A stretch of DNA of 23,351 bases from positions 1-23,351 of IMG/VR virus record IMGVR_UViG_3300014325_000043; one strand, written 5' to 3'. This DNA is from a virus. The notes under the pieces were generated by a model that made no database searches, was not told the origin of the DNA, and saw only the letters and a list, made by a program, of their open reading frames with translations. Shown here one piece after another: positions 19,501-21,892 of the stretch (position 1 is its first letter; every line of letters begins with the position of its first letter). Made by a program: the position numbers and the translations under genes.

Positions 19501-19655
19501 CGGTAACGACGCCTCTCTCGTTGAGCCAGCAGCGAGCGAAACTCCTGAATCCCCGCGCGCATCTTCAACGTGCGCTCGTCCACTTCCTTGCGGGCCCACC
19601 ATTTGGCCCACAACTCGGGGGTGAAACGGACTCGCGGACAATAGTTCCAGCTCAC
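19497..19655 (-). CDS. 52-residue basic hypothetical protein
   Basis: A 52-codon frame joins helicase and nuclease genes. Its GTG overlaps the helicase stop (GTGA), and its TGA overlaps the nuclease GTG. The protein starts VSWNYCPRVRFTPELWAKWW, then continues with a basic helix KMRAGIQEFRSLLAQRERRRYR. It is tryptophan and arginine-rich, with no known domain. Fixation of the frame by overlapping starts and stops on both sides argues that it is real. Role unknown, possibly DNA-linked. Confidence 0.65.
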   Translation of the reverse strand: MSWNYCPRVRFTPELWAKWWARKEVDERTLKMRAGIQEFRSLLAQRERRRYR

Positions 19656-20557
19656 GCGTAGGCATCCTCTGGGAGATACCGGATAGGCTGATCGAACTTG
19701 GAGAACAACAACTGACGGGAATTCTTGTCGTAATGCAGCTTCATCGTGCCAATCCAGTTTACATCACCGCGCTGTTTCCAAACAGTCAACTCTGCATCAT
19801 GTTGCTCGTCGTGCTTGCGCTCCAGCGTTACGACGAGATCTGCTTGAGCCACAATGTCCTGAGCGCCTCGGATGTCATAGAGGTCCATTGGCGCGCGGGA
19901 ATTCGCTGTTTTTCTGGGATGTGCAACAAGATGCACGTGAGCGTTTGAGAGTCGGGCGAGTCTTCCAAGCATATTCCCCATTTCACGCTGTCCGTCGTAG
20001 TCGTCAGTGCGGAGGTCGAGACGCATGAGGGAATCGATGACGACATGACTGAGTCCATACCTCTCGCAAGCAAAACGGATGATGCCCATGAGCAGCGTGG
20101 GCTCAATCATCTCCGTGGAATCAAACACGAACAGTCGTTCGTCCCAGTCATCCAGACACCACTCTCGCTGAACCTTGGTGGGCGAGCGGACGCCCGTCGC
20201 GGTGCACATGAACTCACGCCACACATCGTCCGGGCCTTCCTCCAGGCTCACGAACAGTGCGCGATGGCGATTCTTCAGCGCATGCAACATCAGCTGGCGC
20301 AGGAACGCAGTCTTGCCGCTAAAGGTCGGGCCCGACCAGACCGTCACCTTGCCCGGCATGAACCGGACGTACTCGTTCGCACCTGCCCATGGCAGCGTCA
20401 GACCATCCGACAACGGCGGCCGGAATTGCTCGATCAGAGCCTGGGCGATCTGATGCCGAGGCGTAATGATTCGCGAGTCGCCCTGCTGCCTCCCGAGCTC
20501 CAGCAGCCAGTCGTGATCGTCGCGCGTCACGGCGAGTGTCGGACCCACTTCCCTCAC
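19652..20557 (-). CDS. RecA-type replicative helicase (DnaB/Twinkle-like)
   Basis: The 301-residue protein has a RecA-fold helicase core: Walker A GPTFSGKT (76-83), SLEEGPDD, Walker B HVVIDS (about 171-176) and an H-x-HLVAHPRK strand (207-216) with SRAPMDLYDIRGAQDI. It lacks any N-terminal primase or DnaB-type N-domain of useful size, so it is a stripped-down helicase for unwinding at the phage fork. The GTG start overlaps the upstream stop (GTGA) and is preceded by GGAGG. The gene follows the initiator and a TOPRIM-like small gene, an order like the two halves of T7 gp4. Confidence 0.85.
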   Translation of the reverse strand: MREVGPTLAVTRDDHDWLLELGRQQGDSRIITPRHQIAQALIEQFRPPLSDGLTLPWAGANEYVRFMPGKVTVWSGPTFSGKTAFLRQLMLHALKNRHRALFVSLEEGPDDVWREFMCTATGVRSPTKVQREWCLDDWDERLFVFDSTEMIEPTLLMGIIRFACERYGLSHVVIDSLMRLDLRTDDYDGQREMGNMLGRLARLSNAHVHLVAHPRKTANSRAPMDLYDIRGAQDIVAQADLVVTLERKHDEQHDAELTVWKQRGDVNWIGTMKLHYDKNSRQLLFSKFDQPIRYLPEDAYA

Positions 20558-20859
20558 AGCACCACCTCCGCGCCGCGGCCGCGGAAGTACGTCACGAATC
20601 GCCGCGGATTCGCGCTCGCCAGGAGCTGCGCGGCCGCCGCGCCCTCCTCCCCCTGATCTGCGATCAGGATCACCTCGAGCCCCGCCACGTACGGCACCTC
20701 AGCGGCAACCGGTAGCGGCAGCACGAAGTTACCCCCCGCTTCCAGGTTGGCCCGCTGGCGCCAGTCGTCCGTGACCCACACTGCGCCGGCGGGTTTCTGC
20801 CCTCGGCGCCGGAGGTGTCCGAGCGTGGACCAGCTAGGGGTTGATGCATTGAAGCCCAC
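20554..20859 (-). CDS. small protein resembling a degenerate TOPRIM domain
   Basis: The 101-residue protein has a GAVWVTDDWRQRANLEAGG segment and, after VAGLEVILIADQGEEG, a strand and helix (AAAAQLLAS). This order of strand, helix, strand with D-x-G resembles the TOPRIM fold of primases, but the expected catalytic E and DxD residues are replaced (VTDDW, ADQGEE). The GTG start at 20859 has an AGGGG site and overlaps the initiator's end by 26 bases; the frame from 20925 has no such site. I am unsure of the TOPRIM link. Confidence 0.55.
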   Translation of the reverse strand: MGFNASTPSWSTLGHLRRRGQKPAGAVWVTDDWRQRANLEAGGNFVLPLPVAAEVPYVAGLEVILIADQGEEGAAAAQLLASANPRRFVTYFRGRGAEVVL

Positions 20860-21553
20860 GCTTCCCCTCTGTCCGCGCCTTGCGCGCGTACTCACCCCGC
20901 TCCTTGCACCGCTGGATCCAGCCACGCCATACAGCCGCCCAATCGGAGCGCGGAGTCTTGAACTCCCAGTCGCGGAACTTCTGTGCCTCCGTCTCTGCGT
21001 CGACGTCTGGCAGAAGCGAGCGAGCGAGGTCTAAATCCGGGTTGAAGTCCCTCGGTACCCGAGAGGCGCGCTTTGCGCGCTTCGGTTTCCCCTCTCTCTC
21101 TGTATCTGTATCTGTATCTGTATGTGCGACATTCGCGACTTGCTGCGACTCGTCGCGACACTCCGCGACAGGTTGCGACGGCGCGCGACATGCTGCACGC
21201 TTAGCGGCGATCCGTTCTCGGTCCGCCTTTCGCTTATCCTCCGCGGTTACCAGTTCCAGATAGACGCGGTGGTTCACCAGGCGCCAGCCCCATGGACGAT
21301 GGTCGTCCAGCCGGACTATGCGACGCCCGTCATCGCCGGGCGTACGCGAGTAGGGATCGGGCTTTTCAAGCACTTCGATCCCCTGCTGGATTATCTCCAG
21401 CGGGATACTGGTGCGCGCGGCAATGGCCTGCGGGGTCATATCGACAACCCCGTCCGCGTCGCACAACACAATCATCTGCTGGAAGGCCACGATCGCCTGC
21501 CAGTGTCCGTAAAGCGTTCCGTCATACATCGAGGCAAAGATCTTCCCGTACAC
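20834..21553 (-). CDS. replication initiator / replisome organiser (lambda O-like role)
   Basis: The 239-residue protein has an N-terminal winged-helix part (about 1-105) with VYGKIFASMYDGTLYGHW, DGVVDMTPQAIAARTSI, KPDPYSRTPGDDGRRI and GWRLVNHRVYLEL. This pattern recurs in phage initiators located before a helicase. A variable linker (about 110-165) holds a TDTDTDTE repeat, and the C-terminal part (about 185-225) reads QKFRDWEFKTPRSDWAAVWRGW. It should bind the origin and load the helicase. The GTG start is one base after the previous stop. DNA inside the linker carries the 10-bp repeat array listed separately. Confidence 0.8.
   Translation of the reverse strand: MYGKIFASMYDGTLYGHWQAIVAFQQMIVLCDADGVVDMTPQAIAARTSIPLEIIQQGIEVLEKPDPYSRTPGDDGRRIVRLDDHRPWGWRLVNHRVYLELVTAEDKRKADRERIAAKRAACRAPSQPVAECRDESQQVANVAHTDTDTDTEREGKPKRAKRASRVPRDFNPDLDLARSLLPDVDAETEAQKFRDWEFKTPRSDWAAVWRGWIQRCKERGEYARKARTEGKRGLQCINP
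21101..21124 (+). repeat. TGTATC hexanucleotide repeat
   Basis: Three perfect TGTATC units and a fourth ending TATG occupy 24 bases, next to a CT run (21092-21101). On the coding strand this yields the alternating Thr-Asp stretch of the initiator's linker. A six-base unit preserves the frame when units are gained or lost. The T/A-richer, strand-asymmetric tract abuts the iteron array. Confidence 0.85.
21126..21189 (+). repeat. iteron-like array of GCGAC, candidate replication origin
   Basis: GCGAC occurs at 21126, 21135, 21145, 21155, 21165, 21175 and 21185. The first step is 9 bases and the others are exactly 10. A degenerate GCACG follows at 21195. The period of 10 is not a multiple of 3, so the encoded protein shows no repeat. 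The pattern therefore exists at DNA level, one copy per helical turn. Initiator genes that contain their own binding sites, as in lambda O, give the model for an origin here. Confidence 0.65.
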
Positions 21554-21722: not shown

Positions 21723-21892
21723 GATGCCAGCCACTTTGCGAGCAGGAGCACGCCGAGCCAGAAACCCGCGATGATCAACACGCATGCCGTCCACAACACC
21801 GGCACATCGATCTTCACCGGCTGATCCGGGAGCGCCATCACGGGCTTTGGCCGGTGGCGTCTGCGAAGATGCGGAAGCGTGACAGCGTTCAT
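21719..21892 (-). CDS. small membrane protein, one TM segment
   Basis: The 57-residue protein starts MNAVTLPHLRRRHRPK and has a basic N-terminus and one C-terminal hydrophobic segment (VLWTACVLIIAGFWLGVLLLA). An AGGTG site 5 bases before the ATG supports 21892 rather than the upstream ATG at 21916. It is the first gene of the long leftward operon. A basic tail plus one TM resembles small phage membrane factors, but no function can be named. Confidence 0.6.
   Translation of the reverse strand: MNAVTLPHLRRRHRPKPVMALPDQPVKIDVPVLWTACVLIIAGFWLGVLLLAKWLAS

Follow-up and report, generated by a model that had tools for sequence, protein, structure and literature searches.

Several phages carry a replication origin within the gene for their own initiator. 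In lambda and Stx phages, the origin consists of iterons and an AT-rich region midway along the initiator gene (PMC7466680). In-gene repeats have also been established experimentally as an origin for SPP1 gp38 (PMC6316719) and for Tuc2009 Rep2009, a protein reported to bind the repeat region (PMC8965321). The repeats of the lambda O, SPP1 gp38 and Tuc2009 Rep2009 genes have the same position as those of the locus described here: they lie in a linker that joins a DNA-binding domain on its N-terminal side to a replication domain, variable in kind, on its C-terminal side. The lambda iterons are 18-bp imperfect palindromes spaced at 20–24-bp steps, without a 10-bp chain. In the rep gene of Tuc2009 (NC_002703), CAACC occurs four times at exactly 11-bp steps, which provides a precedent, in an in-gene origin that has been proven, for iterons spaced one turn apart; no such array was found in TP901-1 rep.

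We analysed a 23,351-nucleotide stretch of viral DNA (IMG/VR record IMGVR_UViG_3300014325_000043, positions 1 to 23,351), hereafter the window. An earlier note, made from the sequence alone, had placed seven GCGAC copies in the linker region of an initiator gene, and the open reading frame and the positions of the copies agree with this (Table 1). On the plus strand the copies start at 21126, 21135, 21145, 21155, 21165, 21175 and 21185. The description of six at exactly 10-bp steps is right for the copies and wrong for the steps, five of which are 10 bp and one 9 bp (9, 10, 10, 10, 10 and 10 on the plus strand). The iterons therefore lie within the initiator coding sequence and between its domains, as in a lambda-type in-gene origin.

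The contrast that the note had drawn between a short 10-bp unit and the longer lambda iterons also held, since the window has 5-bp cores in direct repeat every 10 bp, whereas lambda has 18-bp palindromes. Such palindromic iterons are absent at the window locus, searches of Pfam and PHROGs gave no match to the lambda O family, and no PDB relative was found by sequence for lambda O. The Tuc2009 origin, ori2009, resembles the window in its linker position, its one-turn short direct repeats and the short purine-rich repeats that follow them, but differs in its core, its 11-bp step and its initiator type (annotated as a DnaD-like helicase loader). SPP1 oriL differs from the window in that SPP1 has a second origin, oriR, elsewhere.

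Table 1. Features of the initiator locus in the window
Feature	Position	Strand	Basis or remark
DnaB-like helicase ATPase gene, downstream of initiator	19652..20557	-	Pfam, PHROGs
Initiator gene, 239 aa, GTG start	20834..21553	-	ORF; wHTH N-domain, basic helix, linker with putative origin, C-terminal replication domain
C-terminal domain, ~residues 150-239, proposed helicase/primosome recruitment	20837..21106	-	phrog_3992, phrog_1408 matches
Hexamer tract (ACAGAT)n on gene strand, encodes TDTDTDT	21099..21125	-	abuts array; proposed DNA-unwinding element
Iteron array, seven GTCGC on gene strand	21126..21189	-	steps 10,10,10,10,10,9 in gene direction
Basic helix, residues 107-122, KRKADRERIAAKRAAC, proposed iteron-core reader	21188..21235	-	within predicted helix 95-123
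Helix 52-63, canonical HTH recognition helix	21365..21400	-	without tracking of core
N-terminal winged-helix domain, residues 1-106	21236..21553	-	AlphaFold2 models, mean pLDDT 86

GCGAC is not enriched across the window as a whole (76 sites versus 101 expected); it is the regular spacing that sets the array apart. Among all 5-mers, no chain at 9–10-bp steps is longer than the array itself, with 7 copies; in the remainder of the window the maximum is 3. Scoring chains of any 5-mer in the same way in 100 first-order Markov sequences of window length (23 kb each) gave a best chain of 3, making the array very unlikely by chance.

The C-terminal part of the initiator matched phrog_3992 (primosomal protein, E 1.5e-8) and phrog_1408 (replication initiation protein, E 4.4e-5), and the product of the helicase gene matched Pfam DnaB_C (E 1e-9) and AAA_25 (E 2.9e-12) as well as phrog_239 (DNA primase/helicase, E 2.8e-38). 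Pfam gave no match to the initiator and a PDB profile search returned nothing meaningful, while Foldseek against the PDB found weak wHTH matches only, the best being the centromere-binding protein AspA (E 0.06). Replication initiators and replisome organizers are among the nearest viral structure models. AlphaFold2, run with family alignments, predicted helices at residues 18–30, 41–48 and 52–63, strands at 79–81 and 90–92, and a single continuous helix at 95–123, the second half of which is basic. Taken with the linker, the replication-type C-terminal domain and the helicase gene nearby, the predicted wHTH domain suggests a member of the broad class of phage replication initiators and replisome organizers. 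Using tblastn against named phages, we found similarity to the window initiator in mycobacteriophages, confined to the C-terminal domain; the N-domain of one relative, L208, was likewise searched against named phages and none was found.

A profile of the N-domain retrieved 215 relatives from viral contigs, 80 of which were taken irrespective of arrays. In 53 of 73 distinct genes, the same place in the linker held at least three exact copies of one 5–6-bp core at 8–11-bp steps. The remaining quarter or so had fewer than three exact copies, most of them with two or with degenerate copies, and some of these genes perhaps carry degenerate arrays. Consecutive spacings in the 53 relatives were 8 bp (3 cases), 9 bp (66), 10 bp (117) and 11 bp (19), with none of 12 bp, and harmonics appeared near 20 and 30 bp. 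The core itself varied: GTCGC (17 genes), TCAAC (13) and GTCAC (10) were accompanied by GTAAC, GTTAGC, GTAAAC, GTCAGC, GTCCC, GTCCAC and GTAGC. What is conserved is thus the period and place of the array and not the sequence of its core, and the comparison of homologues that the note had proposed, in which spacing should be kept while other bases vary, came out as expected. The C-termini of the relatives are non-homologous, the domain having been swapped for unrelated ones. In L007, the basic helix and the array are separated by an in-frame insertion, an HNH-endonuclease-like segment (~430–590; CAYCGG...DHIIPKSKGG...CRRCNQHK).

Repeats within a coding sequence could instead be a coding tandem repeat, produced by slippage, which would make the linker flexible and repetitive as a protein while the DNA itself has no role. 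The earlier note had dismissed this on the grounds that the protein is not repetitive. That premise is wrong: the linker is weakly repetitive (CRAPSQPVAE / CRDESQQVAN), a 10-residue quasi-repeat that arises from the ten codons spanned by every three 10-bp units, with the GTCGC core translated in its three frames as CR, SQ and VA. The argument from the protein cannot, therefore, exclude coding repeats, to which the 18 near-identical units of the relative L207 also lend some colour. The conclusion of selection at the DNA level nevertheless stands, by way of synonymous recoding, in which the protein was kept and codons were redrawn from the gene's own usage. Recoding destroyed the arrays: the seven GTCGC sites of the window linker were reached in 3 of 20,000 recodings, and the gene has 7 copies versus 1.45 in recoded versions. 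In 47 of 53 family genes the chain beat synonymous recoding at p≤0.01, although individual p values are somewhat optimistic because the core was picked as the best from a word list. Moreover, the reading frame is broken by 9- and 11-bp steps, all three frames are in use across the arrays of 29 of the 53 genes, inverted core copies are present in L216 and L012, and the period is kept in relatives with other protein linkers. An array of four copies in Escherichia phage Evi even lies within the wHTH coding region, and was matched in 0 of 5,000 recodings. The array is hence under constraint at the DNA level beyond the protein sequence, being unlikely even given the protein, and the coding-repeat explanation is largely refuted; we consider it the least probable of those discussed here.

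Directly after the array of the window comes a 27-bp tract with a G+C content of 0.42, versus 0.62 for the gene, most of which (21099–21123) is a tandem repeat of period 6. A low-G+C region adjoining the iterons, and plausibly serving in unwinding, is also part of the lambda-type layout. In the relatives, the 36 bp following the array averaged a G+C content of 0.41 versus 0.53 for the genes and were lower in 49 of 53, with a lag-6 identity of 0.58 versus 0.27 elsewhere. Their hexamers are A-rich (GCAGAT, GCAGAA or TCATCT). L206 and L263 have the hexamer the other way round, so that the protein reads SVSVSV instead of TDTDTD, and 7-bp steps are found in L233, L246 and L252; the hexamer DNA thus seems to be selected independently of the linker that it encodes. 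These observations point to a function of the tract at the DNA level, most simply as a DNA-unwinding element.

With the lambda, SPP1 and Tuc2009 precedents, we read the window array as an in-gene replication origin with head-to-tail half-sites of one helical turn, a basic-helix reader and a hexamer unwinding element, and put the probability of this reading at about 0.8. The earlier note had also taken the array for the replication origin, with every bound monomer on one DNA face, and the kept spacing and the linker position shared with lambda O, SPP1 and Tuc2009 support it, origin activity itself being what we infer from them. Initiator protomers would bind the GTCGC half-sites head to tail, one for each turn of the helix, which would place them all on the same DNA face, and could then form a nucleoprotein filament. 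The strands would open at the low-G+C (ACAGAT)n tract, after which the C-terminal domain may recruit the phage DnaB-like helicase.

The initiator might instead bind the array as a regulatory site, in autorepression, copy-number control or handcuffing, with replication starting elsewhere. The minimum of the cumulative GC skew falls at 21818, some 0.6 kb from the array, but in this record, which is a fragment, the skew is weak, shows no clear switch and is uninformative as to the origin, which leaves room for a regulatory site. The two arrays within one Evi gene (described below) suggest an architectural role and would suit such a site. A low-G+C repeat tract abutting the array is, on the other hand, the standard layout of iterons with an AT-rich region, and the same in-gene layout is an origin in SPP1, Tuc2009 and lambda (PMC6316719, PMC8965321, PMC7466680). 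We therefore regard a purely regulatory array as improbable and keep to the origin reading in what follows.

Mutual information (MI) between each N-domain column and the core type, with core labels assigned automatically, was used to find the residues that track the core. The six most informative columns were 111, 107, 118, 115, 110 and 114, all within the basic helix. Leave-one-out nearest-neighbour prediction from the 16 helix columns gave the right core for 40 of 50 genes. The remaining N-domain columns were right for 25 of 50, and none of 200 random sets of 16 columns exceeded 30. A tree built from the winged helix alone requires no fewer than 27 changes of the core, a count that includes 13 labels assigned by eye. 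We propose that the half-site would be read by the basic second half (~107–122) of the long helix leaving the winged-helix domain. In the putative code, D111 with K118 would specify GTCGC (found together in 16/16 GTCGC genes), N or A111, mostly with Q118, would specify GTCAC (N or A111 in all 12 GTCAC genes), and T111 with H118 would specify GTAAC (8/8 GTAAC genes). The code is a statistical one, and binding of the initiator to the array would follow from it. One gene, L193, has the core GTAGC with D111 but Q118, a misfit to a simple code of Gln for A and Lys for G, under which K would be expected.

The informative residues occupy one face of the helix (MI moment at 100 degrees 0.52, p 0.001). 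Residue 113, although variable, carries no core information, and residues 120–122 carry little or none despite being nearer to the array. The likeness to bZIP proteins lies in this use of one face of a basic helix, with informative residues at i, i+3/4 and i+7. In the predicted structure the putative specificity residues share a single face of an unbroken basic helix, as in bZIP proteins; the leucine zipper that follows the basic region in the bZIP family proper is absent, and the repeat-encoded linker comes next.

Since wHTH domains usually read DNA with their recognition helix, helix 52–63 might be expected to read the core of the in-gene origin, leaving the basic helix to add affinity only. 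Its mean corrected MI with the core is 0.08 bits, on which it was rejected as the core reader, and it is nearly identical across many GTCAC and GTAAC genes. The covariation of basic helix and array could then reflect linkage: the two are neighbours in the DNA, which makes some co-inheritance expected, and recombination would move them together. Linkage, however, favours no single helix face and skips no variable residues, so that the one-face pattern and the silence of the variable residues 113 and 120–122 argue against it, and the pairing of helix and core recurs in initiators outside the family. Reading of the core by helix 52–63 is consequently unlikely, and the core is probably read mainly by the basic helix in a bZIP-like manner.

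The helix motif also served as a predictor beyond the family. Scanning viral contigs with QTR[EK]RVxKHR alone yielded 35 non-redundant genes, 11 inside the N-domain family and 24 outside it, the latter mostly Firmicutes-type organizers. GTAAC chains were present in 11/11 of the former and 19/24 of the latter, versus a mean of 3.4 and a maximum of 9 under synonymous recoding. Among sixteen GTNNC words tested outside the family, the runner-up to GTAAC was its reverse complement, GTTAC. Organizers with QNRERKxxQRE carried GTCAC in L367, L371 and L373 (two copies only in L373), while L370 and L372 have QNRERK yet no clear GTCAC array; in L273, also outside the family, KREADRxRIxxKR accompanies GTCGC. 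Firmicutes-type organizers with QTRKRVAKHR or QNRERKRRQR (L279, L283, L367 and L371) are thus like the window in their helix–core pairing (GTAAC, GTCAC) and in-gene array, but unlike it in an N-domain that the profile of the window does not match. Three further helix-motif scans gave few matches, and in a class-wide genome search around L010, which covered 369 genomes, the 3 matches were weak or already known.

GTCAC arrays with four exact copies at 10 bp occur in at least 120 viral stretches, many of them in other initiator families. Many four-copy GTCGC matches in viral contigs were set aside because they lie outside initiators and seem to reflect chance in GC-rich DNA or repeats of other kinds. 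The replication protein of Escherichia phage Evi and Pseudomonas phage phi1 (phrog_1408/3729 type, with a DnaT-like C-domain) resembles the window initiator in having a GTCAC array in its linker after an ERKRxQRER helix; in Evi this array is followed by ACAGATAAAGATA repeats (ACAGATA-type). It differs in an N-domain unmatched by the profile of the window and in a second GTCAC array within the winged-helix coding region, the two arrays lying at 1628–1664 and 1888–1934 in Evi (L269) and recurring in phi1 (L270). The presence of GTCAC arrays in several initiator families might be explained by a shared host factor, with the arrays serving as sites for another phage or host protein in place of the initiator. 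We think this very improbable, given that cores differ among close relatives and track the initiator's own helix.

In-gene phage origins were already known, from a few models; what seems to be new is the recurring class of one-turn arrays, the hexamer element and, above all, a code in the basic helix from which the core can be predicted in more than one family. None of these was described in the open-access literature that we searched. With moderate confidence, we propose that phage initiators of this class are widespread and belong to several N-domain families, in phages of both Gram-negative and Firmicutes type, and that they would recognise the in-gene origin through a portable bZIP-like basic helix, with a simple code centred on residues 111, 115 and 118. 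As the helix is encoded directly beside the half-sites, reader and site would be inherited and exchanged together, and a single recombination could, if this is true, give rise to a new origin specificity. Here the origin appears legible from sequence: specificity would be predictable from about six initiator residues, a prediction that already holds across initiator families. Annotation of many phages and prophages could then include their origins and replication-incompatibility groups. An initiator gene of the Evi-related type, with an in-gene array of this sort, is present in 2,064 of 5,426 complete E. coli genomes, usually annotated as a hypothetical protein, which makes laboratory tests practical.

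Two further observations concern the GTCAC arrays. Compared with Evi, L013 has extra 10–11-bp units inside the domain. In L109, a DUF6291 protein gene, a GTCAC array is followed by CAGATA-type hexamers in another frame (QIQVQVQEQIQRQ); this is the same DNA module in a protein of unrelated look.
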